Below are positions 1 to 51,922 of a stretch of 64,000 nucleotides of DNA, in pieces (the stretch's first letter is position 1; every line of letters starts with the position of its first letter). Source of the stretch: Antedon mediterranea (Eukaryota; Echinodermata; Crinoidea; Comatulida; Antedonidae); assembly GCF_964355755.1 (NCBI RefSeq), contig NC_092676.1:30267871-30331870 (forward strand). Direction: 5' to 3'. Below the pieces are notes generated by a model. That model worked only from the letters and a program-made list of their open reading frames with translations, searched no databases and had not been told where the DNA came from. Both the position numbers and the translations under genes were made by a program.

Positions 1-7098
<7,098 letters not shown>

Positions 7099-7699: not shown

Positions 7700-9056
7700 T
7701 TAGTGTTTTGCTTGCTTATAAAGTTTCAAAATTTCTATACCATCTTTTAATTCATCATCTTCTCGTAACCTCTTATTGCAATATTGTTGAAGGTCATTGA
7801 CCTCAGATGACCTCATTTTTGTTATTTCAATGATTTCTGCTGCTGTTGCATCTGTAAGAATCTGGTGGAAATAAACACCTTGATATCAATATAAGAAGCT
7901 GGCCTTCCTCTTTTTATACATTGTTATTGGCAGGTACTAGTTTGACAAAAAAGTGCGATGTGCCCAAACATGGTATTGATATTACCAAATATGGTAGTGA
8001 TATATATATATGGGCACATCACATTTTTTTGTCACAAAAAGTTTAATAGAAGTGTAGAAAAAATGACATAAATTACTTTTAGATATCTATTTTTGACAGA
8101 CTGAGACTTAATATTTATGTTGGCATTCCCCCCCCCCCCCCTTGTTTGAGTAAAAGATCCAGGATCTGCCCCTAATTAAACAGTTGAAAATAATACCTTG
8201 CCTGTGTTGTAATAAAAATGATAAAGTAAGTGCAGTGTTACTTGTTCTTTGATTCTTAATTTTCAAATTAACTTTATCAATTTGTTTTAAATCATCATCG
8301 TTTCTTATTCTTGAAACATTCAAATATGAATTACAGTCTACCAACATGAAAACTCATGGCTGAAAAGTTCTGGTTTTCAGAATGTTCTCTACAAACTGTA
8401 GTAAGACAGTAAGAAAATGTATGAGTTGGTTTACCTGTAATTCATGTTTTGTCAGAAGTGGGATGCGTGCAGGATTTTTCTTGATTGATTTAGCCACGAC
8501 GCTCAACACCTTCTCTGTGGAGTCCGTCTGATCAGTTCCTTGAGTGTTGACCAGCTCAATATCTGTATAATTTATAATAAGTATCTTTAAGGTATAAAAC
8601 AATATTTGTAAAAAATCTGTTTTATTATGGAATATTTTGAAACATACAGTATGATATTTTGATGATTAGTATTGTAGATTAGGGAGGGGTGGGGGCTAAA
8701 TATTTCATAACTGATAAAAACGATCAGTCGAGTTGCAAAAAAATAAAAATAGCTGGTGGGGGCTAAAGCCTGTTTATCCGCGCCTGTATATATTTCACAA
8801 AATATGTACCACTTCTTTTTGCAGTCCAAGTTTGTCCATCAGCGAGGGCCATTAATAGCACATACTTCGGTAATGATTGAAAATATTCATCATCCTCTAA
8901 TATTGTACCATCAATATCTTCTACAATTGTCAGTCTGTCATTTTGTACATTGAAATACTTTTTGACTTTTTCCACAATGTCTGTTATCGTTGATGCCGTT
9001 ACTCCAATTTGTTTTGTTCGATCCGCATTACACACTTTCAAAGGTTTTCGGTCCAT
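7700..9056 (-). CDS. DFFA: DFFA/ICAD-like inhibitor of caspase-activated DNase, short form
   Basis: Three coding exons on the minus strand, 9056..8813, 8562..8435 and 7861..7700, join in frame to a 177-residue protein. Exon 1 encodes a CIDE-N domain (about residues 4-76; VEDIDGTILEDDEYFQSLP is the acidic patch). Exons 2-3 encode the middle DFF45 domain (LLTKHELQILTDA, then a helical stretch to the C-terminus), which aligns by eye with LLSEEDLQMLVDA of human DFF45. In that family the protein chaperones and inhibits the apoptotic nuclease DFF40/CAD until caspase-3 cuts it. A DQTD|S sequence (D92-D95) just after the CIDE-N domain resembles the known DETD|S cleavage site. The chain stops before the usual C-terminal DFF-C domain (vertebrate length about 331), so it resembles the short ICAD isoform. 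The exon 1 donor (GTGGTA) is weak. A distal alternative 3' exon cannot be excluded. Confidence 0.85.
7939..8044. mobile_element. MITE family A, copy 2 (both ends lost)
   Basis: Contains GACAAAAAAGTGCGATGTGC, a central ATGGTAGTGATATATATA block and GGGCACATCACATTTTTTTG, matching the interior of the other copies. The outer AAGCTCTGTCTACACTATC termini are absent. It lies in the DFFA intron. Confidence 0.75.
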
Positions 9057-9353: not shown

Positions 9354-9362
9354 GAATGTAGG
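9354..9362. repeat. 9-bp target-site duplication, left copy
   Basis: GAATGTAGG directly precedes the terminal ACCGGCGTGAAG of the giant element. The identical 9-mer follows its other end at 22445-22453. Confidence 0.9.
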
Positions 9363-9533
9363 ACCGGCGTGAAGTTGGTTACTTATTCCTTATTCGATAT
9401 TCAATTTTTTTTGTGAAGTTGGATCCTTATTCGACATTCACATTCACATTCACATGTATGGGGCGCAATATGTGTAATATTTTAATTAAATGATTTTATA
9501 CTTACGGCTTAGATTAACTAGGGCTATGATTTA
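9363..9533 (+). repeat. Left terminal inverted repeat of the giant element
   Basis: Reads ACCGGCGTGAAGTTGGTTAC onward to AGGGCTATGATTTAT. Against the inverse of 22279-22444 it differs only by one extra CATTCA hexamer in a short microsatellite and one substitution (GATTAAC or GATCAAC). Such identity over ~170 bp argues for a young insertion or recent conversion. Confidence 0.93.
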
Positions 9534-10820
9534 TATTTATATTTATATTTAAAACCTTACTACAATTTAACGTTTTTATAAAAAATGCAATATAACCGGA
9601 TGATATATAAGGCTATAATTACGTTATAAACGGCATAGACCGGGATGACGATACATGGGTTGGAGTGAGTAGGATCCAGTCATTTCAGAAAATTTTCTCT
9701 TGCCCGGCCCCGGTCCATGCCGTCTAGCTGTCATTTTACGCCATTTTAAAACGTTACTACAATTTAACGTTTTTTAAATAAAAAATGCAATATAACAGGA
9801 TGATATATAGGGCTATAATTACGTTATAAACGGCATGGACCGGGATGACGATACATGGGATGGGGCAAGTAGGGTCCAGTCAATTCAGAAAAATACAACT
9901 TGCCCCGGTCCATGCCGTCTAGCTATCATTTTACGCCATTTTAAAACGTTACTACAATTTAACGTTTTTTTATAAAAAATGCAATATAACCGAATGATTT
10001 ATAGGGCTATAATTACGTTATAAACGGCATGGACCGGGATGACGATACATGGGTTGGGGCTAGTAGGGTCCAGTCGTTTCAGAAAAATACCACTTGCCCC
10101 GGTCCATGCCGTCTAGCTGTCATTTTACGCCATTTTAAAACGTTACTACAATTTAACGTTTTTTTAAATAAAAAATGCAATATAACAGGATGATATATAG
10201 GGCTATAATTACGTTATAAACGGCATGGACCGGGATGAAGATACATGGGTTGGGGCAAGTAGGGTCCAGTCAATTCAGAAAAATACCACTTGCCCCGGTC
10301 CATGCCGTCTAGCTGTCATTTTACGCCATTTTAAAACGTTACTACAATTTAAGGTTTTCATAAAAAATGCAATATAACCGAATGATTTATAGGGCTATAA
10401 TTACGTTATAAACGGCATGGACCGGGATGACGATACATGGGTTGGGGCTAGTAGGGTCCAGTAGTTTCAGAAAAATACCACTTGACCCGGTCCATGCCAT
10501 CTAGCTGCCATTTCACGTCATTTTAAAACCTTACTACAATTTAACGTTTTTATAAAAAATGCAATATAACCGGATGATATATAAGGCTATAATTACGTTA
10601 TAAACGGCATGGACCGGAATGACGATACATGGGTTGGGGCGAGTAGGATCCAGTCATTTCAGAAAATTATCTCTTGCCCCGGTCCATGCCGTCTAGCTGT
10701 CATTTTACGCCATTTTAAAACGTTACTACAATTTAACGTTTTTAAAAATAAAAAATGCAATATAAATGCATGATTTATAGGGCTATAATTACGTTATAAA
10801 CGGCATGGACCGGGATGACG
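9534..10820 (-). repeat. Left arm: about 6 satellite monomers
   Basis: Monomer marks CGGCATGGACCGG recur near 9632, 9831, 10027, 10223, 10415, 10603 and 10801, a period of about 190-199 bp. Orientation is opposite to the right arm. The short open frames that recur in the monomers are conserved only because the units are copies. Confidence 0.93.
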
Positions 10821-11030
10821 ACTGGACCCTACTCGCCCCAACCCATGTATCGTCATCCCGGTCCATGCCGTTTACAACGTAATTATAGAACTAAAAATCA
10901 TACGTTTATATTGCATTTTTTATAAAAACGTCAAATTTTAGTAACGTTTTAAAATGGCAGCTAGACGGCATGGACCGGGGCAAGTGGTATTTTTCTGAAA
11001 CAAATGGACCATACTAGCCCCAACCCATGT

Positions 11031-11441
11031 GTAGTGAATTTATCTTTAGTTGGTTCCGAGCTTTCTCAGGCGTATATATATATAACTCCACGCGACGTAC
11101 ACTGTCACTGAATGATAACTCATACAAAAAGTATATTTAACTCAACTAGAACTTTTATTCCTTGTAATTCGATTAATACATCTTTCTACCACTACCAGTC
11201 AAGCCTTAATATTTTCTTTATCATCTTTCCGTTTATCTACTCTGATCTTATTCTCTCTTCTCCCCCTAATATCTATTACATTCCACTTTTATACTGGACA
11301 TGCAAATTTTAGGCTTCAGAGGAGGATAACATTTTCCCTCCAAAAATTATACGATTTTGATTGGCTAATAATATAAGGCGGACCTGGTCTAAAGCATCCT
11401 TCTCTAAACACAGAGAATCACAACATCAATAACATGACACC
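11031..11441. other. Unique spacer near the inversion centre of the giant element
   Basis: Monomer sequence stops at CAACCCATGT and resumes at CCATGTATCGTC. The ~410 bp between is unrelated to the monomer and is bounded by the short direct repeat CCATGT. It holds a GCGTATATATATATAACTCC run resembling a TATA box and a 66-codon frame at 11112-11312 with no recognisable homology. It is either the loop of the foldback structure or a separate insertion with a 6-bp duplication. Confidence 0.6.
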
Positions 11442-14400
11442 ATGTATCGTCATCCCGGTCCATGCCATTTATAACGTAATTATAGCCCTATAAATCATTC
11501 GGTTATATTGCATTTTTTATTTAAAAAAATTAAATTGTAGTAACGTTTTAAAATGGCGTAAAATGACAGCTAGACGGCATGGACCGGGGCAAGTGGTATT
11601 TTTCTGAAACAACTGAACCCTAATAGCCCCAACCGATGTATCGTCATCCCGGTCCATGCCGTTTATAACGTAATTATAGCCCTATAAATCATACGTTTAC
11701 ATTGCATTTTTTATGAAAACCTTAAATTGTAGTAACGTTTTAAAATGGCGTAAAATGACAGCTAGACGGCATGGACCGGGATAAGAGGTATTTTTCTGAA
11801 ATGACTGGACCCTACTCGCCCCAACCCATGTATCGTCATCCCGGTCCATGCCGTTTATAACGTAATTATAGCCCTATATATCATCCGGTTATATTGCATT
11901 TGTTATAAAAACGTTAAATTGTAGTAAGGTTTTAAAATGGCGTAAAATGATAGCTAGACGGCATGGACCGGGACAAGTGGTATTTTTCTGTAATGACTGA
12001 ACCCTAATAGCCCAAACCGATGTATCGTTATGCCGGTCCATGCCGTTTATAACGTAATTATAGCCCTATAAATCATCCGGTTATATTGCATTTTTTATTA
12101 AAAAAAACGTTAAATTGTAGTAACGTTTTAAAATGGCGTAAAATGATAGCTAGACGGCATGGACCGGGGCAAGTGGTATTTTTCTGAATTGACTGGACCC
12201 TACTTACCCCAACCGATGTATCGGCATCCCGGTCCATGCCGTTTATAACGTAATTATAGCCCTATAAACCATTCGGTTATATTGCATTTTTTATTTAAAA
12301 AAACGTTAAATTGTAGTAACGTTTTAAAATGGCGTAAAATGATAGATAGACGGCATGGACCGGGGCAAGTGGTATTTTTCTGAATTGACTGGACCCTACT
12401 TGCCCCAACCCATGTATCGTCATCCCGGTCCATGCCGTTTATAACGTAATTATAGCCCTATAAATCATATGTTTACATTGCATTTTTTATGAAAACCTTA
12501 AATTGTAGTAACGTTTTAAAATGGCGTATAATGACAGCTAGACGGCATGGACCGGGGTAAGAGGTATTTTTCTTAAATGACTGGACCCTACTCGCCCCAA
12601 TCCATGTATCGTCATCCCGGTCCATGCCGTTTATAACGTAATTACAGCCCTATATATTTCATCAGGTTATATTGCATTTTTTATAAAAACGTTAAATTGT
12701 AGTAAGGTTTTAAAATGGCGTGAAATGGCAGCTAGACGGCATGGACCGGGTCAAGTGGTATTTTTCTGAAACTACTGGACCCTACTAGCCCCAACCCATG
12801 TATCGTCATCCCGGTCCATGCCGTTTATAACGTAATTATAGCCCTATAAATCATTCGGTTATATTGCATTTTGTATTTAAAAAAATTAAATTGTAGTAAC
12901 AGTAACGTTTTAAAATGGCTTAAAATGACAGCTAGACGGCATGGACCGGGGCAAGTGGTATTTTTCTGAAATGAATGGACCCTACTCGCCCCAACCCATG
13001 TATCGTTATCCCGGTCCATGCCGTTTATAACGTAATTATAGCCCTATATTTCATCCGGTTATATTGCAATTTTTATAAAAACGTGAAATTGTAGTAACGT
13101 TTTAAAATGGCGTGAAATGGCAGCTAGACGGCATGGACCGGGTCAAGTGGTATTTTTTTTAAACTACTGGACCCTACTAGCCCCAACCCATGTATCGTCA
13201 TCCCGGTCCATGCCGTTTATAACGTATTTATAGCCCTATAAATCATTCGGTTATATTGCATTTTTTATTTTTAAAAATTAAACTGTAGGACCGGTAACGT
13301 TTTAAAATGGCGTAAAATGACAGCTAGACGGCATGGACCGGAGCAAGTGGTATTTTTCTGAAATGACTGGACCCTACTCGCCCCAACCCATGTATCGTCA
13401 TTCCGGTCCATGCCGTTTATAACGTAATTATAGCCCTATATATCATCCTGTTATATTGAATTTTTTATTTAAAAAAACGTTAAATTGTAGTAACGTTTTA
13501 AAATGGCGTAAAATGACAGCTAGACGGCATGGACCGAGGCAAGTGGCATTTTTCTGAAACGACAGGACCCTACTAGCTCCAACCCATGTATCGTCATCCC
13601 GGTCCATGCCGTTTATAACGTAATTATAGCCCTATAAATCATACGGTTATATTGCATTTTTTATAAAAAAAACTTAAATTGTGGTAACGTTTTAAAATGG
13701 CGTAAAATGGCAGCTAGACGGCATGGACCGGGGCAAGTGGTATTTTTCTGAAATGACTGGACCATACTTGCCCCAACCCATGTATCGTCATCCCGGTCCA
13801 TGCCGTTTATAACGTAATTATAGCCCTATATTTCATCCGGTTATATTGCAATTTTTATAAAAACGTGAAATTGTAGTAAGGTTTTAAAATGGCGTGAAAT
13901 GGCAGCTAGACGGCATGGACCGGGTCAAGTGGTATTTTTTTTAAACTACTGGACCCTACTAGCCCCAACCCATGTATCGTCATCCTGGTCCATGCCGTTT
14001 ATAACGTATTTATAGCCCTATAAATCATTCGGTTATATTGCATTTTTTATTTTTAAAAATTAAATTGTAGGACCGGTAACGTTTTAAAATGGCGTAAAAT
14101 GATAGCTAGACGGCATGGACCGGGGCAAGTGGTATTTTTCTGAATTGACTGGACCCTACTTGCCCCAACCCATGTATCGTCATCCCGGTCCATGCCGTTT
14201 ATAACGTAATTATAGCCCTATAAATCATTCGGTTATATTGCATTTTTTTTATAAAAAAACACGTTAAATTGTAGTAACGTTTTAAAATGGCGTAAAATGA
14301 TAGCTAGACGGCATGGACCGGGACAAGTGGTATTTTTCTGAATTGACTGGACCCTACTTGCCCCAACCCATGTATCGTCATCCCGGTCCATGCCGTTTAT

Positions 14401-17400
14401 AACGTAATTATAGCCCTATACATCATACGTTTACATTGCATTTTTTATGAAAACCTTAAATTGTAGTAACGTTTTAAAATGGCGTAAAATGACAGCTAGA
14501 CGGCATGGACCGGGGTAAGAGGTATTTTTCTGAAATGACTGGACCCTACTCGCCCCAACCCATGTATCGTCATCCTGGTCCATGCCGTTTATAACGTAGT
14601 TACAGCCCTTATATATATCATCCGGTTATATTGCATTTTTTATAAAAACGTTAAATTGTAGTAAGGTTTTAAAATGGCGTGAAATGGCAGCTAGACGGCA
14701 TGGACCGGGTCAAGTGGTATTTTTCTGAAACTACTGGACCCTACTAGCCCCAACCCATGTATCGTCATCCCGGTCCATGCCGTTTATAACGTAATTATAG
14801 CCCTATAAATCATTCGGTTATATTGCATTTTTTTTATAAAAAAACACGTTAAATTGTAGTAACGTTTTAAAATGGCGTAAAATGATAGCTAGACGGCATG
14901 GACCGAGGTAAGAGGTATTTTTCTGAAATGACTGGACCCTGCTCGCCCCAACCCATGTATCGTCATCCCGGTCCATGCCGTTTATAACGTATTTATAGCC
15001 CTATAAATCATTCGGTTATATTGCATTTTTTATTTTTAAAAATTTAAAAATTAAATTGTAGGACCGGTAACGTTTTAAAATGGCGTAAAATGATAGCTAG
15101 ACGGCATGGACCGGGGCAAGTGGTATTTTTCTGAATTGACTGGACCCTACTTGCCCCAACCCATGTATCGTCATCCCGGTCCATGCCGTTTATAACGTAA
15201 TTATAGCCCTATAAATCATTCGGTTATATTGCATTTTTTTATAAAAAAACACGTTAAATTGTAGTAACGTTTTAAAATGGCGTAAAATGATAGCTAGACG
15301 GCATGGACCGGGACAAGTGGTATTTTTCTGAATTGACTGGACCCTACTTGCCCCAACCCATGTATCGTCATCCCGGTCCATGCCGTTTATAACGTAATTA
15401 TAGCCCTATACATCATACGTTTACATTACATTTTTTATGAAAACCTTAAATTGTAGTAACTTTTTAAAATGGCGTAAAATGACAGCTAGACGGCATGGAC
15501 CGGGGTAAGAGGTATTTTTCTTAAATGACTGGACCCTACTCGCCCCAACCCATGTATCGTCATCCCGGTCCATGCCGTTTATAACGTAATTACAGCCCTA
15601 TATATCATCCGGTTATATTGCATTTTTTATAAAAACGTTAAATTGTAGTAAGGTTTTAAAATGGCGTGAAATGGCAGCTAGACGGCATGGACCGGGTCAA
15701 GTGGTATTTTTCTGAAACTACTGGACCCTACTAGCCCCAACCCATGTATCGTCATCCCGGTCCATGCCGTTTATAACGTAATTATAGCCCTATAAATCAT
15801 TCGGTTATATTGCATTTTGTATTTTAAAAAATTAAATTGTAGTAACAGTAACGTTTTAAAATGGCTTAAAATGACAGCTAGACGGCATGGACCGGGGCAA
15901 GTGGTATTTTTCTGAAATGAATGGACCCTACTCGCCCCAACCCATGTATCGTCATCCCGGTCCATGCCGTTTATAACGTAATTACAGCCCTATATATCAT
16001 CCGGTTATATTGCATTTTTTATAAAAACGTTAAATTGTACTAAGGTTTTAAAATGGCGTGAAATGGCAGCTAGACGGCATGGACCGGGTCAAGTGGTATT
16101 TTTCTGAAACTACTGGACCCTACTAGCCCCAACCCATGTATCGTCATCCCGGTCCATGCCGTTTATAACGTAATTATAGCCCTATAAATCATTCGGTTAT
16201 ATTGCATTTTGTATTTAAAAAAATTAAATTGTAGTAACAGTAACGTTTTAAAATGGCTTAAAATGACAGCTAGACGGCATGGACCGGGGCAAGTGGTATT
16301 TTTCTGAAATGAATGGACCCTACTAGCCCCAACCCATGTATCGTCATCCCGGTCCATGCCGTTTATAACGTAATTATAGCCCTATAAATCATTCGGTTAT
16401 ATTGCATTTTGTATTTAAAAAAATTAAATTGTAGTAACAGTAACGTTTTAAAATGGCTTAAAATGACAGCTAGACGGCATGGACCGGGGCAAGTGGTATT
16501 TTTCTGAAATGAATGGACCCTACTCGCCCCAACCCATGTATCGTTATCCCGGTCCATGCCGTTTATAACGTAATTATAGCCCTATATATCATCATGTTAT
16601 ATTGCATTTTTTATTTTAAAAAACGTTAAATTGTAGTAACGTTTTGAAATGGCATAAAATGATAGCTAGACGGCATGGACCAGGGCAAGTGGTATTTTTC
16701 TGAATTGACTGGACCCTACTTGCCCCAACCGATGTATCGTCATCCCGGTCCATGCCGTTTATAACGTAATTATAGCCCTATAAATCATTCGGTTATATTG
16801 CATTTTTTTTTATAAAAAAACACGTTAATATGTAGTAACGTTTTAAAATGGCGTAAAATGATAGCTAGACGGCATGGACCGAGGTACGTAAGAGGTATTT
16901 TTCTGAAATGACTGGACCCTGCTTGACCCAACCCATGTATCGTCATCCCGGTCCATGCCGTTTATAACGTATTTATAGCCCTATAAATCATTCGGTTATA
17001 TTGCATTTTTTATTTTTAAAAATTAAATTGTAGGACCGGTAACGTTTTAAAATGGCGTAAAATGATAGCTAGACGGCATGGACCGGGGCAAGTGGTATTT
17101 TTCTGAATTGACTGGACCCTACTTGCCCCAACCCATGTATCGTCATCCCGGTCCATGCCGTTTATAACGTAATTATAGCCCTATAAATCATTCGGTTATA
17201 TTGCATTTTTTTATAAAAAAACACGTTAAATTGTAGTAACGTTTTAAAATGGCGTAAAATGATAGCTAGACGGCATGGACCGAGGTAAGAGGTATTTTTC
17301 TGAAATGACTGGATCGACCCTGCTCGCCCCAACCCATGTATCGTCATCCCGGTCCATGCCGTTTATAACGTAATTACAGCCCTATATCATCCGGTTATAT

Positions 17401-18780
17401 TGCATTTTTTATAAAAACGTTAAATTGTAGTAAGGTTTTAAAATGGCGTGAAATGGCAGCTAGACGGCATGGACCGGGTCAAGTGGTATTTTTCTGAAAC
17501 TACTGGACCCTACTAGCCCCAACCCATGTATCGTCATCCCGGTCCATGCCGTTTATAACGTATTTATAGCCCTATAAATCATTCGGTTATATTGCATTTT
17601 TTATTTTTAAAAATTAAATTGTAGGACCGGTAACGTTTTAAAATGGCGTAAAATGATAGCTAGACGGCATGGACCGGGGCAAGTGGTATTTTTCTGAATT
17701 GACTGGACCCTACTTGCCCCAACCCATGTATCGTCATCCCGGTCCATGCCGTTTATAACGTAATTATAGCCCTATAAATCATTCGGTTATATTGCATTTT
17801 TTTATAAAAAAACACGTTAAATTGTAGTAACGTTTTAAAATGGCGTAAAATGATAGCTAGACGGCATGGACCGAGGTAAGAGGTATTTTTCTGAAATGAC
17901 TGGATCGACCCTGCTCGCCCCAACCCATGTATCGTCATCCCGGTCCATGCCGTTTATAACGTAATTACAGCCCTATATCATCCGGTTATATTGCATTTTT
18001 TATAAAAACGTTAAATTGTAGTAAGGTTTTAAAATGGCGTGAAATGGCAGCTAGACGGCATGGACCGGGTCAAGTGGTATTTTTCTGAAACTACTGGACC
18101 CTACTAGCCCCAACCCATGTATCGTCATCCCGGTCCATGCCGTTTATAACGTAATTATAGCCCTATAAATCATTCGGTTATATTGCATTTTTTATTAAAA
18201 AAAACCCCGTTAAATTGTAGTAGCGTTTTAAAATGGCGTAAAATGATAGCTAGACGGCATGGACCGGGGCAAGTGGTATTTTTCTGAATTGACTGGACCC
18301 TACTTGCCCCAACCCATGTATCGTCATCCCGGTCCATGCCGTTTATAACGTAATTATAGCCCTATAAATCATTCGGTTATATTGCATTTTTTTATAAAAA
18401 AACACGTTAAATTGTAGTAACGTTTTAAAATGGCGTAAAATGATAGCTAGACGGCATGGACCGGGACAAGTGGTATTTTTCTGAATTGACTGGACCCTAC
18501 TTGCCCCAACCCATGTATCGTCATCCCGGTCCATGCCGTTTATAACGTAATTATAGCCCTATACATCATACGTTTACATTGCATTTTTTATGAAAACCTT
18601 AAATTGTAGTAACGTTTTAAAATGGCGTAAAATGACAGCTAGACGGCATGGACCGGGGTAAGAGGTATTTTTCTTAAATGACTGGACCCTACTCGCCCCA
18701 ACCCATGTATCGTCATCCCGGTCCATGCCGTTTATAACGTAATTACAGCCCTATATATCATCCGGTTATATTGCATTTTT

Positions 18781-19579
18781 AGTCGCGTGGAAGCGACTCT
18801 ATAGTTCACTATGTCGGTCGGTCGGTCTGTCTGTCTGTCTGTCTGTCGGTCTGTGTGTCGGTCTGTCTGTCGGTCTGTCTGTCTGTCTGTCGGTCCGGTA
18901 TCACTATGCGTTTTATCGCTTTATGACCTTATCTTGATATCAGTTTAATCTAGCTAAATCAATTTTTCACAGAATATTCCTTATGGCCAGGAATCGATGT
19001 GGTTATGATTTCACGGTGCGCAATAAAAAATTACGCGGTCTACGCACGATTTAACGAAATCACGTTTGTAATCATATCTTAACAACCATGAATCACAATT
19101 AAATAAAATTTGGTACTCATAAATTTCAGGGCATAAATCATCATATGGCAATACAATTACGTGCGTAGCGCATGTAACGCATGCGTACGCGCGCCTAAAA
19201 TTTTCAAAATTTATTTTCGATAAAATAAGAGTACGTTTCAGGCAATTTTAAGCGTTTACAAAATTGCCATGAGTGCGCAGATTTTTGCGCGCGCACTGCG
19301 CGTTAAATGTTATTGCGCACTCTTTTTGCCCGATTTCTGTTTTCTTGACTTACTTTTCAACTTAAATTACGTTATACGAGCACGTCAAAAGTGACAGGCT
19401 ACGCACGTGTAAATTAAAAAAATATAAATATTTTAAACATGTTCAGTAATTTCGGTCAGTATAGTTCACTATGTCGGTCGGTCCGTCTGTCTGTCGGTCT
19501 GTCTGTCTGTCGGTCTGTTTGTCTGTCGGTCCGGTATCACTATGCATTGTAGCACGCGACTTAATGGCTGTTGGCCTTG
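18781..19579. mobile_element. Nested 799-bp element inside the satellite array
   Basis: Interrupts a monomer between GCATTTTT and TTATAAAAACG. It begins AGTCGCGTGGAAGCGACTC and carries the inverse CACGCGACT near 19553-19561. Each end holds a ~100-bp direct repeat of TATAGTTCACTATGTCGGTC, a GTCT/GTCG microsatellite and CGGTATCACTATGC. The middle is rich in GCGCGC and TACGCA motifs, unlike the surrounding satellite. No coding frame is seen. It inserted after the array had formed. Confidence 0.75.
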
Positions 19580-22278
19580 TTTATAAAAACGTTAAATTGT
19601 AGTAAGGTTTTAAAATGGCGTGAAATGGCAGCTAGACGGCATGGACCGGGTCCAGTGGTATTTTTCTGAAACTACTGGACCCTACTAGCCCCAACCCATG
19701 TATCGTCATCCCGGTCCATGCCGTTTATAACGTAATTATAGCCCTATAAATCATTCGGTTATATTGCATTTTGTATTTAAAAAAATTAAATTGTAGTAAC
19801 AGTAACGTTTTAAAATGGCTTAAAATGACAGCTAGACGGCATGGACCGGGGCAAGTGGTATTTTTCTGAAATGAATGGACCCTACTCGCCCCAACCCATG
19901 TATCGTTATCCCGGTCCATGCCGTTTATAACGTAATTATAGCCCTATATATCATCCTGTTATATTGCATTTTTTATTTTAAAAAACGTTAAATTGTAGTA
20001 ACGTTTTGAAATGGCGTAAAATGATAGGTAGACGGCATGGACCAGGGCAAGTGGTATTTTTCTGAATTGACTGGACCCTACTTGCCCCAACCGATGTATC
20101 GTCATCCCGGTCCATGCCGTTTATAACGTAATTATAGCCCTATAAATCATTCGGTTATATTGCATTTTTTTATAAAAAAACACGTTAAATTGTAGTAACG
20201 TTTTAAAATGGCGTAAAATGATAGCTAGACGGCATGGACCGGGACAAGTGGTATTTTTCTGAATTGACTGGACCCTACTTGCCCCAACCCATGTATCGTC
20301 ATCCCGGTCCATGCCGTTTATAACGTAATTATAGCCCTATACATCATACGTTTACATTGCATTTTTTATGAAAACCTTAAATTGTAGTAACGTTTTAAAA
20401 TGGCGTAAAATGACAGCTAGACGGCATGGACCGGGGTAAGAGGTATTTTTCTGAAATGACTGGACCCTACTCGCCCCAACCCATGTATCGTCATCCCGGT
20501 CCATGCCGTTTATAACGTAATTACAGCCCTATATATCATCCGGTTATATTGCATTTTTTATAAAAACGTTAAATTGTAGTAAGGTTTTAAAATGGCGTGA
20601 AATGGCAGCTAGACGGCATGGACCGGGTCAAGTGGTATTTTTCTGAAACTACTGGACCCTACTAGCCCCAACCCATGTATCGTCATCCCGGTCCATGCCG
20701 TTTATAACGTAATTATAGCCCTATAAATCATTCGGTTATATTGCATTTTTTATATAAAAAAAACGTTAAATTGTAGTAACGTTTTAAAATGGCGTAAAAT
20801 GATAGCTAAATGGCATGGACCGGGGCAAGTGGTATTTTTCTGAATTGACTGGACCCTACTTGCCCCAACCCATGTATCGCCATCCCGGTCCATGCCGTTT
20901 ATAACGTAATTATAGCCCTATACATCATACGTTTACATTGCATTTTTTATGAAAACCTTAAATTGTAGTAACGTTTTAAAATGGCGTAAAATGACAGCTA
21001 GACGGCATGGACCGGGGTAAGAGGTATTTTTCTGAAATAACTGGACCCTACTCGCCCCAACCCATGTATCGTCATCCCGGTCCATGCCCTTTATAACGTA
21101 ATTATAGCCCTATATTTCTTCCGGTTATATTGCAATTTTTATAAAAACGTGAAATTGTAGTAAGGTTTTAAAATGGCGTGAAATGGCAGCTAGACGGCAT
21201 GGACCGGGTCAAGTGGTATTTTTTTAAACTACTGGACCCTACTAGCCCCAACCCATGTATCGTCATCCCGGTCCATGCCGTTTATAACGTAATTATAGCC
21301 CTATAAATCATTCGGTTATATTGCATTTTTTATATAAAAAAAACGTTAAATTGTAGTAACGTTTTAAAATGGCGTAAAATGATAGCTAAATGGCATGGAC
21401 CGGGGCAAGTGGTATTTTTCTGAATTGACTGGACCCTACTTGCCCCAACCCATGTATCGCCATCCCGGTCCATGCCGTTTATAACGTAATTATAGCCCTA
21501 TACATCATACGTTTACATTGCATTTTTTATGAAAACCTTAAATTGTAGTAACGTTTTAAAATGGCGTAAAATGACAGCTAGACGGCATGGACCGGGGTAA
21601 GAGGTATTTTTCTGAAATAACTGGACCCTACTCGCCCCAACCCATGTATCGTCATCCCGGTCCATGCCGTTTATAACGTAATTATAGCCCTATATTTCTT
21701 CCGGTTATATTGCAATTTTTATAAAAACGTGAAATTGTAGTAAGGTTTTAAAATGGCGTGAAATGGCAGCTAGACGGGATGGACCGGGTCAAGTGGTATT
21801 TTTTTTAAACTACTGGACCCTACTAGCCCCAACCCATGTATCGTCATCCCGGTCCATGCCGTTTATAACGTATTTATAGCCCTATAAATCATTCGGTTAT
21901 ATTGCATTTTTTATTTTAAAAAATTAAATTGTAGGACCGGTAACGTTTTAAAATGGCGTAAAATGACAGCTAGACGGCATGGACCGGGGCAAGTGGTATT
22001 TTTCTGAAAAGACTGGACCCTACTCGCCCCAACCCATGTATCGTCATTCCGGTCCATGCCGTTTATAACGTAATTATAGCCCTATATATCATCCTGTTAT
22101 ATTGAATTTTTTATTTAAAAAACGTTAAATTGTAGTAACGTTTTAAAATGGCGTAAAATGACAGCTAGACGGCATGGACCGGGGCAAGTGGTATTTTTCT
22201 GAAACGACTGGACCGTACTAGCCCGAACCCATGTATCGTCATCCCGGTCCATGCCGTTTATAACGAAGTTATAGCCCT

Positions 22279-22444
22279 ATAAATCATAGCCCTAGTTGAT
22301 CTAAGCCGTAAGTATAAAATCATTTAATTAAAATATTACACATATTGCGCCCCATACATGTGAATGTGAATGTCGAATAAGGATCCAACTTCACAAAAAA
22401 AATTGAATATCGAATAAGGAATAAGTAACCAACTTCACGCCGGT
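22279..22444 (-). repeat. Right terminal inverted repeat of the giant element
   Basis: Starts ATAAATCATAGCCCTAG and ends CCAACTTCACGCCGGT; it is the inverse of 9363-9533. Confidence 0.93.
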
Positions 22445-22453
22445 GAATGTAGG
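22445..22453. repeat. 9-bp target-site duplication, right copy
   Basis: GAATGTAGG immediately follows the terminal GCCGGT, matching 9354-9362. Confidence 0.9.
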
Positions 22454-25199: not shown

Positions 25200-25212
25200 T
25201 CCAAACAATTTA

Positions 25213-25362
25213 AAGCTCTGTCCACACTATCAAACTTTATATGACAAACAAATGTGATGTGCTCATATTTGGACATGATGATGTCATATCACTATCATAT
25301 TTGGGCATATCCCTACCATATTTGGGCACATTACAACTAATTTGATAGTGTAGACAGAGCTT
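25213..25362 (+). mobile_element. MITE family A, copy 3 (complete) in the SF3A2 3' region
   Basis: Begins AAGCTCTGTCCACACTATCA and ends TTTGATAGTGTAGACAGAGCTT: intact terminal inverted repeats of ~25 bp around a ~150-bp body. The body has ATATCACTATCATATTTGGG and GGGCACATTAC blocks. It begins 13 bp after the SF3A2 stop codon, so it probably lies within the 3' UTR. Confidence 0.9.
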
Positions 25363-26189
25363 AGCAAAATGCTTAACAGCCACTCCAATTACTGTACTCT
25401 TCCATATAACATCTGAGTATATTTTAAACAATATCTTTGGAACTGTTTTTAAAAATGATATCATAATTTTGTAAATGGATTATTCATTTGTATGTGTCCA
25501 ACTTACTTAAGTTATTTAAGTACTAATACTTTGGTGTTGTTTTTTTTATACTTTACTATGTACATGGTGTGCCACAAACATTAATCATGTAATTTAGTAC
25601 TTTTCAATGTATGATTTAAACTGAATGACATTAAATATCATGTTGACCACATTATTATTGTTTTGAATTGTGTTATAAAATCGTTTGGTTATGTACGTGT
25701 ATACTCCACGTGATTGTAATTATTTTGTTTGTTTGAAAATTCCTTGAACGATCCTCTGGACAGTAACCTACAAAATAACAGATATCGTCTAACAGTCCAG
25801 TGTTACTTTGACGGCATTACAGTTGCCATTAGCTGTGAATTCTCCTGAGGATGACACAATATACTATGAGGACAATTGACATACAACCTAACCCCCATGT
25901 GACATTTGTTCAGTCTAATTGACTTTACGAAAGATTCAAATCGAATTAAAAATGCGTGTGTTATCACTTACAGAAAAGTTAGTTAATTCTTTGGCGGTGT
26001 ATGTTACATGTAGTATGTTGATCTGTTTTCAGTATTTGGTACATTTATGTTTGTTGTTGATTATCGTTTTAATGTTAACCTACTAATCTATTAAAACATG
26101 TATTAGTAAAAATGAGAACTGCGACGCAACAAACCAAAATGTCAACATGCCAAACCAATTATCTAGTTTTAATAACAACAATTTAAAAA
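25363..26189 (+). other. SF3A2 3' UTR and intergenic sequence
   Basis: A weak poly(A) signal ATTAAA lies at 25630-25635; no canonical AATAAA was seen nearby. The remainder is unique AT-rich sequence with no gene or repeat I can support. Confidence 0.4.
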
Positions 26190-28620
26190 CTAGATTTGAA
26201 CTCGTCACTACGGACGAGTTAGGTTATCCGCAGTCCTAAAGCCACGTGCACGTCATACGTTGGAATATTGCGCGCAGAAAAACGATTATGCCATTGAAAA
26301 AATGTGAGTGCGCTCTCTATTTTGTGTCACGTCAACGTGTATACGGTATACACTATATACCGTATACGTACTACATACAGTTCAGAATAGGTGAAAATAA
26401 GTGACCAAAGTTATTGACGCTTTTGCACATGATGACGTCATAACAATTTTTAAAATGGTGAATCATGCGAAAGATAATTGATTGACATAGACAATATAAA
26501 GAAATGGAGGGCAATGGAATACGGATAAGTGGAGATGCGCTCTATTAAATGTGATGAGCTATACGAAAGAGAAAAAAATCCTATATTTTATATTCGAGTG
26601 GCCATACGATGACGTCACAATGTCCTGATAGCCATATTGATACATGATTCGATATCTACAACTCATCTACTACCAGAATATGTAATTATAAATAAGTTTA
26701 CCACGTAGTTTAGAATCTATGACTGTTTAAAAAAAGGCATAATTTTGACAAATTTTTGGACTTTTTCATCAAAATTGCGCGCAAATTGTTTAATTCTACG
26801 TGCTCGTATGACGAGATTTTAAGGCAAAATTGATTGAAAATTGGTAAATATATTATAAAAGGCAGAAAAAACGAAAATCAAGCAAAAAAAAGATGTTTTT
26901 GCGCTACGTGCGCACGGGCGCGTAAAAAAAGTGCGCACGCGTGGGAATTTTTGAAATGCTCAAAATGACATGAAACGCGTAGAAAGTTGATTAGAAATGA
27001 ATTTTGCGCATTTTGAAATTTTGAACGCGCGTGCGCGCGTAACTTTATGTAAAACATGCCATTTTTAATCCACAGAAAGTTTGCGCATGATATAACTTAA
27101 ATTTTCACCAAGTTTCAATAGAAAATGACTTTTTGTTTTTAATCTATGATCAATTATTGAAATTCATAAAATTGCGCGTAACTTACGCTGCGTAACTCGA
27201 AAATCAAAAAACAAAGTTTCTTGCACATCTACAGATATAGGTCAATCTTATGACAAAGTTATACAATCATTTGTTAGCCAGAATTAGAGATATGCTTGCA
27301 ACAAAATTCGTGGAAAGAAAGAAGAATATAGAAAAAAAAAAAAAAGAACTAGATTTGAACTCGTCACTACGGACGAGTTAGGTTATCCGCAGCGCAAAGG
27401 CCACGTGCACGTCATACATTAAAATATTGCGCGCAGAAAAACGATTAAGTCATTGAAACAATTTCAGTGTGCTCTCTATTTTTCGTCACGTCTGAATATA
27501 TACGGTATACGCTATATACTGTATACGTACTACATACAGTGCAGAATAGGTGAAAATAAGTGACCAAAGTTATTGACGCTTTTGAACGTGATGACGTCAT
27601 CACAATTTTGAAAATGGTGAATCGTGCGAAAGATAATTGATAGACCTAGACAACATAAAAAAATGGGGGAAATGGAATACAAATAAGGGGAGATGCGCTA
27701 TATTAAATGTGACGAGCTACGAGGAAAGAGACAAAAATCCTATATTTTATATTCGAGTAGCCACACGATGACGTCACAATGTCCGGTTAGCCATATTGAT
27801 GCCTGATTTGATATCTGCAACTCATCTACTATCAGAATATGTAATTATAAAAAAGTTCACCACGTAGTTTAGAATCTATGACTGTTTAAAAAAAGGCATA
27901 ATTTTGACAAATTTTTGAACTTTTTCATCAAAAACGCGCGCAAATTATCCAATTCTACGTGCTCGTGTGACGTGATTTAAAGTCGAAATTGATTGAAAAT
28001 TTATAAATTTACTAGAAAAGGCTGAAAAAACAAAAAACAAGCAAAAAAAGGATGTTTTTGCGCTACGTGCGCACGCGCGCGTAAAAAAATTGCGCACGCG
28101 TGGGAATTTTTGAAATGCTCAAAATGACATGAAACGCGTAGAAAGTTGATTAGAAATTGATTTTTCGCATTTTGAAATTTTAAACGCGCGTGCGCGCGTA
28201 ACTTTTTGTAAAACATGCTATTTTTAATCCATAGAAAGTTTGCGCATGATATGACTTAAATTTTCACCAAGTTTCAATACAAAATGACTTTTATTTTTTA
28301 TTCTATGATCAATCATTGAAATTCACAAAATTGCGCGTAACTTACGCTGCGCGACTCGAAATTTGAAAATAAAAGTTTCTTGCACATCTACAGCTACATA
28401 TCAATCTTATGAAAAAGTTATACAATCATATGTTGCCCAAAATTAGAGATATGCGACCAACAAAATTCGTGGAAAGAAAGAAGAAAATAGAAAAAAAAAG
28501 AGAAAAAAAAAAAAGATCCTGACAATAACAAGAGGTTATCCGCCAAGTGCGGATAACCAAAAAAAAAAAAAAAAAAGATCCTGACAATAACAAGGGGTTA
28601 TCCGCCAAGTGCGGATAACC
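26190..28620. mobile_element. Tandemly doubled ~1.16-kb CpG-rich element with hairpin/A-tract tail
   Basis: Two copies start TAGATTTGAACTCGTCACTA at 26191 and 27350, a period of 1159 bp. They are collinear, with substitutions and small indels. Each opens with a GAACTCGTC...GACGAGTT dyad followed by GGTTATCCGC. Each has a GTATACGGTATAC-type palindrome, TGATGACGTCA sites and GCGCGC-rich stretches, and closes with GAAAGAAAGAAGA and an A-tract. The second copy is followed by two 62-bp units (28515 and 28577), each GATCCTGACAATAACAAG plus a perfect hairpin GGTTATCCGC/GCGGATAACC. No coding frame is found. The composition differs from the flanks and resembles the nested element at 18781. Family unknown. 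Confidence 0.8.
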
Positions 28621-33200: not shown

Positions 33201-36200
33201 TGGGTTTCTTGGAAGTCCTTTTTTAACTTGTACCATACACTTTTGGTGTTTTTTTTTTATTGATGTGTATTATTGTATTTGATGAATAAAGAGATTTGAT
33301 TTGATAGTTTGTCATGCCACTTTGTAAATTAACCTTTTAGCAAAAATGTGAACAATTTGAATTTTAAATTGATAGGGAAGACAATAACATTACAGAAAAA
33401 AGAATTAACAGATGATTGGTTGATTCAGATTGGTGAAAAGCACCCAACAGACATTTCTTTACTCCAGTGTAATGGCAGCAAAGTCACTGAAGATGGCTTG
33501 AGAACGATGTTTAGGACCTGTTCAAAGTCCCTGAAGGTAATAACTAGTAAAGGGCTGGGATTCTATAGGATTTTTAGAGTTATTATGTAGTTATAATTTC
33601 AATTTCTTATATTTTTGTATAATCATAATTAATATTTTCTTTATAAATCCCCTTTGCTGTTATGAAACAGCATGGCGAGCATCGGTTAAATTTGAATTTG
33701 TTGAAAATGACTATATAGACAGCTGTAGTTATTAAAAGAAGTATATGTTTATTTGAGTTAGACTTTATTAATGCATGAAAATATGTCTTTTATAGATCTC
33801 TCCTCATTATAAAAACATTGCTTAAAAGGTCACATTAATATGTTTTCAACAAAGGATAATTACTATAGTGATGGTTGTTGTAACATCTGGAAAATATTTC
33901 AAAATTTATCAATAAATCATTTCTTTCTTTTTCCTTCACATTAAAGGATTAAGAGATAAAATTTAGAAAAAAAGAAACAAGCTTAGTGATTATAAATGTA
34001 GGATGCTCTATAAACTGCTACTATATAATCAGAAAGTACAGTAACTGTATGATTGTAGGTAGGATAAGTGTTTTAGTTTTCTTGTATGACATACAGGCAC
34101 ATGTTTCAATCAAATACCATAATCAAGATTATACTATTCTAAAATTACTGTACTGTTCTAATATATTAGAATATTATCTGTAGTTTCTCCAGACCCGAGT
34201 CTCAAAAAGATGTATTTATACCTGCCAAATCAAATAAACAAAAATTGTAGTATTAGAATTTCTTTTTTCCAGAAACTGAACGCGAGTGGTTCAACTGGGG
34301 GCGATCTAATTGGTGATTCTATTCTTCTGCATGCATCTCGTTGTGTAAAGCTAACAAGTCTAGATGTTAGCTGGTGCAGCGTGACAAATAACGGACTTGT
34401 ATCTATCGGTGAATCTATCGAAAAGTATGTTCCCACTTTTTTTTATTTTTATGTTTTTATTAGAAAGGTTAAAGCTAATTGGCTTTGTTAGTTTAAGTGA
34501 GCTATATGATCTGATGACAGAATAATGATGTCACATTCACAAGAGCATTTCTGTCTATGATGATAGGAAATATGAAATATTGACAAAATAATAATAATAA
34601 TTATTAATATCATAATATTATGATAATGATATTGAGAATTGGCAAGGCAATTTCTGATGAATGTGTATTAAAAACAAAATTAAATGTTCATTGTTTGAGA
34701 TAAGGTTTTCCTATCAACATAAGTAGCTTTAAATTAAAGTATTTTTCATTGAGAAGATTGTGTTTTTGTTTTAAACAACGGAAGTAATTAACTTTACAAT
34801 TTTAGTCTCATGGGGTTACAGGTGGTTGTTCAATTCACAAATTTTGTTGTATTTACAGGATTTGTTGATGCAACACTAGATTTATGAGATATTAATCTAA
34901 AGCAGTGATATTCAACTTGGATTAATTCATAAAAATAATATAAATAGTGATATTTTGTTTCCATTAATTTGATATGATTATTTTTCCTGCAAATGTATAG
35001 GTTGCAAGTTCTGTGCCTGAATGGTTGCCAGGCACTAACAGATGATTCTATCAATATGGTCTTACAAAAACATTGCAAAAGGTATGCTAGCATTTAAAAA
35101 TAACTATTTGAAAAACATGGTTTTAATGATGAGTCTGACTTGGTTTTATTGTCCCTAATAAAGAGGCTAAGATATGTAGGAAATTGTTTAAAGAATACTG
35201 TATACAAATATAAAAATAATACACATTGTTGATAATGACATTGTTCTTTTATAGTATTAATGTTCTGGAGTTATTTGGTTGTTTTAACATTTCACCTGCT
35301 GTGATTACACAAGTTGGTAAACTGTGTAGACATCTTCGTACATTGAATGTTGGCCAGTGTTACAAGGTTTGTATACTATTTCTTAAGCTCTGCCTACACT
35401 ATCAACCTTTATGCGACAAACAATGTGATGTGCCCATATATGGAAATAATAAATGTCATATCACTACCATTTGAGCACAACATACCTTTTTTTGTCAAAC
35501 TAGTTTGATTGTGTAGACAGAGCTATGATGAGAAGATCCTTTTTGTTGATTTACATTTAGCATTAAAGGTACAATGTGTAATGAAATGCAGCATAGTACT
35601 ATTAAACTAACCAGTACTTCTAGTTTGATCCAATTGTGGAATGTGATACAACTCAATTAATGTTGCAAATTAAGTCTATTCTAAATTCCAATAATATTTG
35701 AAATATGTGATGATAAAATTAACAAAATAAATAATGACAATTTATTATATAATGACACGATACAAATATTATACCTTTGGGTGCCATTACGCAAATTGGA
35801 AATTAAACGGCCAGGCAATGTAGCTTTTATATAAAGCTGTTTCCGTATGGAACATGATTTTCCATAATTAAACTTTTCATAATGCTGAGGATTTTATTGA
35901 TGCATTACGCAAGTATTTTTATCTTTATTTTTCACACTATATTTAATGAACAAATTTTTAAATTAAACGATTTATATTATTACTGCGAAACACTGAAAAT
36001 TTACTGAACAAAGGTTTTCTATGAGAAAGAGATTACTGTAGCTCTGTGGTCCTCTCCCCAATATTGCCCGTCCCTGAAAAATGTTAAAAATGCTCACTGA
36101 AATCGCATCATGCCGTAGAAATATTATGCTATTAAATACTGTGGTGGTTGTTTCAGATGACAGATGATGATATGGTGACCATGGTAACTCATCTGGAACA

Positions 36201-44434: not shown

Positions 44435-46373
44435 ATGCAGATGATTATTCAAGTTAGTCTGTTAACGTTGACAGTGTTGCACGTGGCATACGCTAACAAA
44501 TATGGTTGCCCGATGTACAAAGCAACGGAGTTGATGGCTGGCCCACGTAAGTAAACTGGTCAGATACTGCAGTAATTTACGTTGATTAGATCTTCCTCAT
44601 TTATTTATTAAGATCGTTAATTTGTATTTTTGTATACTGAAATAATTTTTGAAGAGCTTTAACTCATGTTTGATTAACTGATTTTATTTTAAAATTATTT
44701 TCATTTTGGAAACCAATTTCTACGACTTTTATGTTGATTTTTGTAAACCGATAAATAATAAATATTTACGCTGACAAATTAATAAAAATAAAGGTTTAAC
44801 TCATTTGTATGTTTGATTTGCTGATTTTATTTTTTTAAATTTATTTTTTATTTTGGAAACCAATTTTTATGACTTTATGTTGCTTTTTGTGAGCCAATAA
44901 ATAAATATTCCACTAAATAATACATATTTACGCTACCGCCGAAGAATAACGAAGAATATGCCTATACGTATCTCCACCAATATAATAAACATAATTATAT
45001 TACTTTATATTTGGAAGATGCTTACATATGATATTATAGCCTACACCAATTAATAATGTATCCATCGTGTTCGTTCTGTTCCATCAACCCTGACTCGACG
45101 CATTTATTTTTGTATTTCATTCACGTGTACTTAATATCATCAATATGCTGTCATGTTTATTGGAATTGTAAACTAAATAGTATATTTTAAACAGTAATTA
45201 TACTGATGCTTGTGTATATTTACGCGCGCGCGTCTTTTTATCGATATATCGGAGTGGTCTTACTTATTACAAATCTATCACAAACTTATTATTGTTCGAT
45301 TGAGAGTATGTGGTTTGCTTGAAGGGTGTTAGAAGCCATCGAAATGCAGACTTTTACTTTTTTTTTAGTTATTTTCACTTACGAAAATATTAATTGAATG
45401 CCAAAATATTGAAATGTTTATTGATCTTTATTTTATTTATTGCGAATTCAGTTTTATTTCGAAGGTTGGTATTGTTAAAACCAATGTTTCAAATTTACAC
45501 ACAGATCCACTGAATTGACAGCGCTCGATGTACAATTTTTCTTATTTTTTTTATAAATAAAATACAGTCATTACAATTTATTTCTGGTATGAAAATGATA
45601 AATTATAATTTCAGAGAAATGTAAGGATGTGGACGGCAACGAACACAGAATAGGCGATACTTGGCGCACAAAGGATTGCAAGAACTGTGAATGCTATGAC
45701 TATTACCATGCGTGCTGTGACCTGTAAGTTAGACCCATACACCACAGATAGTAAATGCATCCCTTTGTCATACAAATGTATACTACTTAATATAAAAACG
45801 TCAGTGTTGCTATGACTATAAGCATGCGTGCTGTAACCTGTAAATTATTACATGTTAGGCCCATACACCACCACACATAACATAACTGCATTCTATGCTT
45901 TATCATACAATGTACTTATACCGTCGTACATATTAAGGGATTCTAGATTGCTTAAGTTCTGTCTACACTATCAAATTTTGTGTGACAAAAAGTGTGATGT
46001 GCCCAAATATGGTAGTGATATGACATCATCCTGTCCATATATGGGCACATTACATTTTTTTTGTCACACAAAGTTTGATAGTGTGACAGAGCTTTCGTGT
46101 AATAGATCAAACCGTCACTGTTTGTTTGTGTTAGTGTGTCTAAAGAGTTCTTTCTTTAAATTATATCATACAGTTATACAGGGGCTCATAATTTAGATAG
46201 AAAAAAATCAGTATACCTAATGTTTTATTTTATTTTATAGCAAACCTCAATACGTTGATTGGAAATACGCTCCTGACGGTTGTACATCAATATGGAACAC
46301 TCTCACTTGCGAAGAAGAATTTGTTTTGGAATATGACGAAAATATTCCATGTCCATACACTGACAGCAAATGA
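44435..46373 (+). CDS. Beta-microseminoprotein (PSP94/MSMB)-like secreted protein 2
   Basis: Exons 44435..44546, 45615..45723 and 46241..46373 give 117 residues. The signal peptide MQMIIQVSLLTLTVLHVAYA is followed by a mature chain with ten cysteines at positions equivalent to gene 1: HRIGDTWRTKDCKNCEC, CC, P.YVDWKYAPDGC, TC and PCPYTDSK. Intron phases are identical to gene 1, so the two arose by tandem duplication and then diverged. Intron 2 carries a broken copy of the exon 2 end (45807-45915) and MITE copy 5. Function in this organism is unknown; secretion is a firm prediction. Confidence 0.85.
45807..45915 (+). pseudogene. Partial tandem duplicate of exon 2 and its donor
   Basis: TTGCTATGACTATAAGCATG, then CGTGCTGTAACCTGTAAAT and CCCATACACCAC, repeats 45692-45784 about 115 bp downstream. 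It copies the last ~30 coding bases (encoding CYDYxHACCxL), the donor and intron start. There is no matching acceptor or 5' half, and the donor has decayed from GTAAGT to GTAAAT, so it is a non-functional exon fragment. Confidence 0.85.
45954..46094 (+). mobile_element. MITE family A, copy 5
   Basis: Begins AAGTTCTGTCTACACTATCA and ends AAAGTTTGATAGTGTGACAGAGCTT, with well-preserved terminal inverted repeats. The interior is inverted relative to copy 3 (ATGGTAGTGATATGACATCA). It lies in intron 2 of microseminoprotein-like gene 2. Confidence 0.88.

Positions 46374-47478: not shown

Positions 47479-51922
<4,444 letters not shown>

Follow-up and report, generated by a model that had tools for sequence, protein, structure and literature searches.

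By what route long satellite arrays arrive at new chromosomal sites is an open question in the field, and it is raised in a direct form by a 13-kb block of tandem repeats in the genome of the crinoid Antedon mediterranea. The block, which we call E01, lies in a 64-kb stretch that was analysed as a whole (hereafter the window; C7:30267871-30331870 in an 18-contig assembly of 354 Mb). Is it a satellite that ends in repeats, or a mobile element of which the satellite is the cargo? We consider it highly probable that E01 belongs to a family of non-autonomous DNA transposons, in which the whole 12-24-kb body is satellite, organised as two opposed arrays between terminal inverted repeats (TIRs) of ~170 bp, and in which these arrays are carried as units. 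All genome-wide results come from this one assembly.

A satellite array with transposon ends

E01 consists of the following parts.

9354-9362, no strand: left 9-bp target-site duplication, GAATGTAGG, by sequence inspection
9363-9535, plus strand: left TIR, 173 bp, with GTGAAGTTGG twice (at 9369 and 9413) within a 27-bp repeat
9548-10821, plus strand: left satellite arm, 6 full ~194-bp monomers and 1 partial monomer cut at the centre
10822-10849, no strand: 28-nt loop at the sole orientation switch between the arms
10822-22288, minus strand: right satellite arm, 54 monomer hits including cut ones, with 2 later insertions inside
22278-22444, minus strand: right TIR, 167 bp
22445-22453, no strand: right 9-bp target-site duplication, GAATGTAGG

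The ends of the element are exact (ACCGGCGTGAAGTTGG at 9363 and CCAACTTCACGCCGGT ending at 22444, each found once in the window), and the left and right TIRs are 1 substitution and one 6-bp indel apart. An earlier note on this DNA had described exact inverse ends, ~170-bp TIRs and a perfect 9-bp duplication, all of which we recovered (173 and 167 bp; the same 9-mer on both sides), together with two opposed arms of about 6 and about 50 monomers, which gave 6 and 54 hits. Its description of the interior as almost all monomers held for the two arms and needs amending for the right one, which is interrupted by a solo long terminal repeat (LTR) and by a ~0.8-kb insertion. Within the TIR, the two copies of the 27-bp repeat are 81% alike. 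The monomers are nucleosome-sized; by length E01 contains ~59 of them, and those of full length have a median of 194 bp (range 190-206) and a mean pairwise identity of 91.7%. The arms are joined head-on through the 28-nt loop, without a middle domain, and the central region 10620-11029, taken as a single strand, forms a single long hairpin (z = -28.7, from 100 shuffles).

The monomer consensus carries an 18-bp inverted box with 17 of 18 positions paired, which 0 of 300 random sequences reached (arms at least 30 apart); under a cruder control, in which palindromes are counted double, the score was reached by 20 of 500 shuffles. The box had 0 matches in the scanned viral contigs and genome-contig collection. 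For the CENP-B box the window contains no exact match, a related degenerate motif being present in most monomers, and no Rfam family matched within it. Two further candidates were rejected. That the TIR gave rise to the monomer, an origin suggested for the Drosophila element Tetris, is unsupported, the 20-bp similarity on which it would depend being equalled by 47 of 500 shuffles; and matches of the 16-base TIR tip in 24 viral contigs are regarded as chance for a 16-mer.

Copies across the genome

A search of the genome with the left TIR gave at least 42 matches (best 40 of 66 candidates scored), among them 11 complete pairs of 12.0-24.4 kb on seven contigs, none shorter than 11.9 kb. These pairs, E01 to E11, constitute family 1; E01-E10 were read whole and E11 at its ends only. 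An exact 9-bp duplication flanks 10 of the 11 pairs, E02 matching at 7 of 9 bases (2 mismatches). When family 1 is pooled with two related families described below, exact 9-bp duplications are found in 19 of 21 pairs, against 0 of 420 mispaired flanks, which excludes chance. The 21 rows leave out E12 (C10:11434941, without a duplication), unpaired TIRs, the degenerate pair C4:12969235-13002766, whose ends were not located, C4:53565-54987, which was read by eye, and family-3 pairs other than the two that were read. The earlier note's expectation that such termini would be paired with 9-bp duplications elsewhere is thus borne out at many loci, and copies in so many places exclude the single-locus artefact of a boundary created by an assembly join.

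These duplications also bear on a simpler view, in which an ordinary satellite became dispersed through conversion or segmental duplication and its edge sequences are all that the TIRs amount to. Such a satellite could account for a ~3-kb run of family-1 monomers at C6:10674497-10677452 (locus L087, C6:10674000-10678000), where no TIR was recognised. However, the duplications sit right at the TIR tips and differ from copy to copy, and the DNA flanking the copies is dissimilar, unlike that of segmental duplications. For the 19 copies with exact duplications this view is refuted, and overall we find it scarcely credible.

All ten family-1 copies read whole have a single orientation switch, and none contains an open reading frame (ORF) of at least 150 amino acids. 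Other family-1 copies match 95-98% of each family-1 sequence (400 bp of flank included), the coverage of E01 (87-88%) being lowered by its two insertions. The ten elements gave 60, 62, 103, 91, 60, 62, 96, 79, 61 and 61 monomer hits, in arms that range from 6|54 to 52|39; E11 holds ~124 monomers by length, and 5 of the 11 elements exceed 62 (79-103 counted, and E11). The TIRs of one element differ at 0-4 of ~168 bases, with a mean of.0098 within and.0101 between elements, as a recent burst from one source would leave them. TIRs that are single, partial or of family 2 mark 13 other stretches (L074-L086); monomers lie inward of the TIR in 12 of them, the thirteenth (L084) being a truncated TIR without monomers.

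Did the arrays move or grow in place?

Monomer order allows growth in place to be separated from movement of whole arrays. Local growth would have proceeded as in Tetris, a short foldback with few monomers per arm being inserted and each array then growing at its own locus by unequal exchange. Growth from few founders per site predicts an identity much higher within elements than between them; across the 735 monomers of E01-E10 the means are.9215 within and.9198 between, which argues against it. Order is shared as well. The right arm of E04 and the left arm of E05 (E04R/E05L) are collinear over monomers 1-15 from the TIR at 98.8%, and E03R and E04R, arms of 68 and 39 monomers, are collinear over monomers 1-12 at 99.0% and over the 7 monomers nearest the centre at 98.7%. 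E01 and E06 have nearly half of their order in common. Between elements the order score rises to.496 at best, 20 order shuffles giving no more than.167, and per element 13-72% of monomers lie in runs common to another element (shuffled order, at most 2.4% overall). This shared order, which includes unlinked loci, together with the finding that all whole-read family-1 copies (10/10) are double arrays, upholds the earlier note's claim that satellite and transposon are one object here.

Growth at each locus has evidence of its own. Exact twins exist for 13 of the 61 E01 monomers, exact block duplications of up to 636 bp occur inside the right arm of E01, nearest relatives are closer within elements (see below), nearly half of the elements are larger than the 60-62-monomer size, and longer Tetris arrays have been interpreted as amplification inside the element (PMC4079207). 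On the opposite side, beside the near-equal identities, stand an order of 12-15 monomers and a centre common to different loci, the recurrence of 60-62 monomers in 6 of 10 elements, and the lack of any complete family-1 pair (n = 11) below 11.9 kb. We therefore regard local growth from short insertions as improbable; to judge from the monomer sequences, long arrays appear to have reached new sites as units, with local duplication editing them afterwards.

Several observations weigh against the explanation favoured here. E09 and E10 share little order with other elements (13% and 23%). In-register identity averaged over all arms is clearly above the background of ~.925 only at monomers 1-2 from the TIR (.954 and.940), so that collinearity is specific to some pairs. 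In a size-matched test against equally many foreign monomers, all 10 elements showed closer nearest relatives within than outside, 9 of them beyond all 200 draws; local duplication has thus gone on in every element too. When numbers were left unmatched, 341 of the 735 monomers had their best match outside their element, 275 had it inside and 119 were tied. Local duplication is visible everywhere, and conversion between copies could also spread monomer types and may account for part of the shared order. E12, on C10, has three family-1 TIRs, in pairs of 1.1 and 3.9 kb, with 31% covered by other copies, and lacks a 9-bp duplication despite those TIRs. Lastly, the related autonomous copy that the earlier note proposed to look for was not found in a search with three transposase domain families: the genome has 36 MULE (Mutator-like element, PF10551), 11 Merlin-type and 35 P-type domain matches, and measured from 122 listed ends the shortest distances are 19.8 kb (MULE), 64 kb (Merlin) and 43 kb (P), the ends coming from the best-scored candidates and from 100 of 126 motif places, and two family-3 elements having been read whole.

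Centre junctions and monomer totals

One centre junction is common to E02, E03, E04, E07 and E10 (mirrored in E07 and E10), with an exact 18-base motif in four of the five and two substitutions in E10. E01, E05, E08 and E09 have their own junctions, with 0-4 shared bases, and in E06 the junction falls within a 16-base box present in the monomer in both orientations. Arms can be alike within an element, as in E07L/E07R (15 monomers at 99.4%) and E03L/E03R (15 at 99.2%).

Monomer totals of 60-62 recur in E01, E02, E05, E06, E09 and E10 (59.4-62.4 by length), a clustering that was noticed after the fact. Crossing-over between opposed arms would invert the part between them and move the switch while keeping the total, and this fits arms that go from 6|54 to 46|15. 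The six elements of this size carry five different junctions, and only some have much order in common.

Related families

Family 2 comprises 8 complete pairs, the first being a 7.8-kb pair at C1:2305352-2313134 with the exact duplication GATTTTACA and with 14 and 15 opposed ~189-bp monomers, the left arm carrying a nested insertion. Its TIR has 83% identity to that of family 1 over 82 bp, and its monomer is related to the family-1 monomer (score 70, against a maximum of 25 in 300 shuffles) and has the same orientation relative to the TIR. A search with the family-2 TIR gave at least 7 more good pairs of 14-20 kb (best 40 of 60 candidates scored), and exact duplications flank 6 of these 7. Two copies each of families 2 and 3 were read whole; both family-2 copies have one switch, and one of them, F2-3, has 44 and 36 monomers. 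A short family-2 copy at C4:53565-54987 (L105, C4:53465-55091), with ~6 monomers in a single orientation, is an exception to the two-arm rule; it too has an exact 9-bp duplication, GTAGGACTA, read by eye.

A 29-base TIR motif matches the genome at 61 places with at most 3 mismatches, against 0 in the reversed control, and a shorter motif at 126, against 2 in the control. These motif searches led to family 3, at least two elements with related ends, and its end has at least 54 matches (best 40 of 97 candidates scored). The two elements read (L111 and L112; 4.1 and 5.2 kb) each have an exact 9-bp duplication, and their arms of 148-bp monomers are 7|10 and 8|10, the left arm of the second being interrupted. 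Between the arms lies a non-coding middle domain of 1.27 kb that is 99.8% identical at the two loci, and family 3 was probably active recently. Arms plus a middle domain make this the plan of a classical foldback, whereas families 1 and 2 consist of arms only. The family-3 monomer is, as far as detectable, unrelated to that of family 1 (score 18, against up to 31 in 200 shuffles). The three families have related ends, with two related monomers and one unrelated, and, the two smaller classical foldbacks of family 3 included, they make up an evolutionary series.

Superfamily

Family 1 has the form of a foldback, inverted tandem-repeat arms with an outer unique TIR domain, in all ten copies read whole, and its mobility is seen in the duplications at several loci. 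Which transposase would move it? From duplication length and TIR form we infer kinship with Mutator. MULE duplications are 8-10 bp and usually 9 (PMC5225508, PMC3169594), as are 19 of the 21 here, and the 173-bp TIR with its 27-bp repeat in two copies is comparable to mosquito MULE families, in which the TIR exceeds 100 bp in 12 of 14 and short subterminal repeats of 9-15 bp are frequent (PMC5225508). Of the earlier note's Mutator link, the 9-bp duplications stand; membership is only inferred, no MULE domain lying within 19 kb of the 122 listed ends. It is an unpaired end that has the nearest MULE domains, at distances of 19.8 and 20.4 kb; neither GTGAAGTTGG nor GAAGTTGGTT was found in eight MULE loci (~1.5 kb on each side), and the two family-3 elements read whole contain no transposase.

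The same element might instead be moved by a non-Mutator transposase (Merlin, P or other), which would be a variant of the explanation favoured here and no alternative to it. Duplications in the P superfamily are 7-8 bp; those in Antedon are 9 bp, and the nearest P-type domain is 43 kb from a listed end. Merlin elements have 8-9-bp duplications and can contain tandem repeats (PMC8101967), both Merlin-type and P-type domains are present in this genome, and the foldback form has arisen in other superfamilies, for example as Galileo in P (PMC3169594). However, Merlin TIRs end in GG (PMC8101967), and the ends in the three Antedon families are ACCGG, AGCGC and ATGTC, that is, ACC, AGC or ATG rather than a terminal 5'-GG; TIRs above 100 bp, subterminal repeats and 8-10-bp duplications match animal MULEs (PMC5225508). 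We consider a non-Mutator source possible and, given these ends, rather unlikely.

Comparison with known elements

Foldbacks with tandem repeats in their inverted arms are known in echinoderms from the TU elements of sea urchin, which have 15-bp units and 8-bp duplications; Helentrons, which can also carry repeats, are of rolling-circle type and lack TIR-type duplications. The closest precedent is Tetris of Drosophila virilis and D. americana (Dias et al. 2014, PMC4079207), so the earlier note, which knew of no described element with this exact structure, needs correcting as regards the kind. As described there, Tetris is a non-autonomous foldback whose TIR is a flanking domain plus tandem ~220-bp repeats, with 8-10-bp duplications, no known transposase and repeats that also occur in satellite arrays. 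It differs in several respects: it has a middle domain, its TIRs reach 1,735 bp at most (at one locus the left TIR contains 3 or 4 repeats), and 395 of 610 repeats are in repeat-only contigs, with arrays of up to 66 copies (PMC4079207). Compared by description, the intact, duplication-flanked elements of the Antedon family contain 60-103 monomers and have no middle domain. The Tetris authors suggested that larger arrays may have disrupted transposition (PMC4079207); in Antedon, exact duplications bracket arrays of 60-103 monomers.

Tm1 of root-knot nematodes is similar in its foldback-type TIRs, variable number of tandem units and mostly 9-bp duplications, and differs in its 1-9 units of ~14 bp, its internal sequence and a known copy with a Phantom-like transposase (PMC3169594). 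The Cg_HINE Helentrons of oyster likewise carry satellite-like monomers through a genome, but with repeat orientation fixed to the flanks and mostly at most 5 monomers, the longest having 29 (PMC7492417). Where numbers are given for the tandem repeats of Tm1, Merlin, Muta1 and Cg_HINE, satellite-size monomers do not exceed 29. The literature searched contained no description of the Antedon family, and among 20 of 44 papers listed for A. mediterranea no title pointed to a repeat study. The E01 family is a real satellite-bearing foldback transposon, the variant itself being new and its kind known from Tetris.

Insertions, neighbouring genes and other features of the window

Two insertions interrupt the right arm of E01.

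11030-11439, plus strand: solo LTR, 410 bp, TG...CA, inside one monomer, with the duplication CCATG (11025-11029 and 11440-11444)
18781-19580, no strand: ~0.8-kb insertion that interrupts one monomer; its ends are inverted (AGTCGCGTG/CACGCGACT) and it contains two GTCT/GTCC microsatellite blocks

Among the matches listed for the solo LTR (best 40 of 269 candidates scored), 39 others are at 95-98% over nearly the full length, and some form like-oriented pairs ~5.6 kb apart, an arrangement found in full retrotransposons. The ~0.8-kb insertion resembles a Helentron in its features only, which were compared with the Helentron-type HINEs of oyster (PMC7492417).

E01 is flanked by a gene with a CIDE-N domain (start codon near 9056, minus strand) and by SF3A2 (start near 23087, plus strand). 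Without E01 the divergent start codons would be less than 1 kb apart, and the insertion, by which the two genes are now separated by 13 kb of satellite, may have split a promoter region common to both.

Elsewhere the window has minisatellite arrays at 4552-6239, 62606-64000 and 49047-49512 (units of 46, 46 and 47 bp), the second of which adjoins a predicted exon (ATP_bind_1 domain) and extends to the window end. A ~1.16-kb tandem duplication at 90% identity occupies 26185-28507, and a dispersed repeat of ~110-150 bp with a CATATCACTACCATATTTGGG-like core is found in both orientations (2855-2995, 7936-8050, 25212-25367, 35378-35524, 45947-46095 and 48853-48978). The ORF at 59883-60836, which had no Pfam match, presumably corresponds to the C-terminal part of a reverse transcriptase of a long interspersed nuclear element, which it resembles; that at 30212-32560 matches an A. 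mediterranea protein at 100% identity, with 86% of the query covered, and has as its sole other match a protein of Anneissia japonica, at 35%.

A satellite array as a possible unit of transposition

The TIRs, the 9-bp duplications, the architecture, the unlinked copies and the shared monomer order are direct observations. We hypothesise that a transposase made elsewhere, at best guess Mutator-like, would bind the GTGAAGTTGG-containing ends in trans and insert the element with a 9-bp stagger, so that the entire array travels as its cargo. In the intervals between transpositions, blocks of monomers would be added or deleted by unequal exchange, exchange between the two arms would relocate the switch point at constant overall length, and the centre could be renewed by template switching or breakage at short homologies.

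The mobile carriers described in the compared literature hold few monomers; here intact, duplication-flanked carriers of 60 to more than 100 are found at many loci. We lean, if only slightly, towards a broader interpretation, namely a transposon lineage that has made a long satellite array its unit of transposition, with ~61 nucleosome-length monomers moved in one piece, arm exchange that keeps the total, and a body monomer that can be replaced. If this is true, transposition would be a main way in which long arrays seed new loci, beside unequal crossing over.

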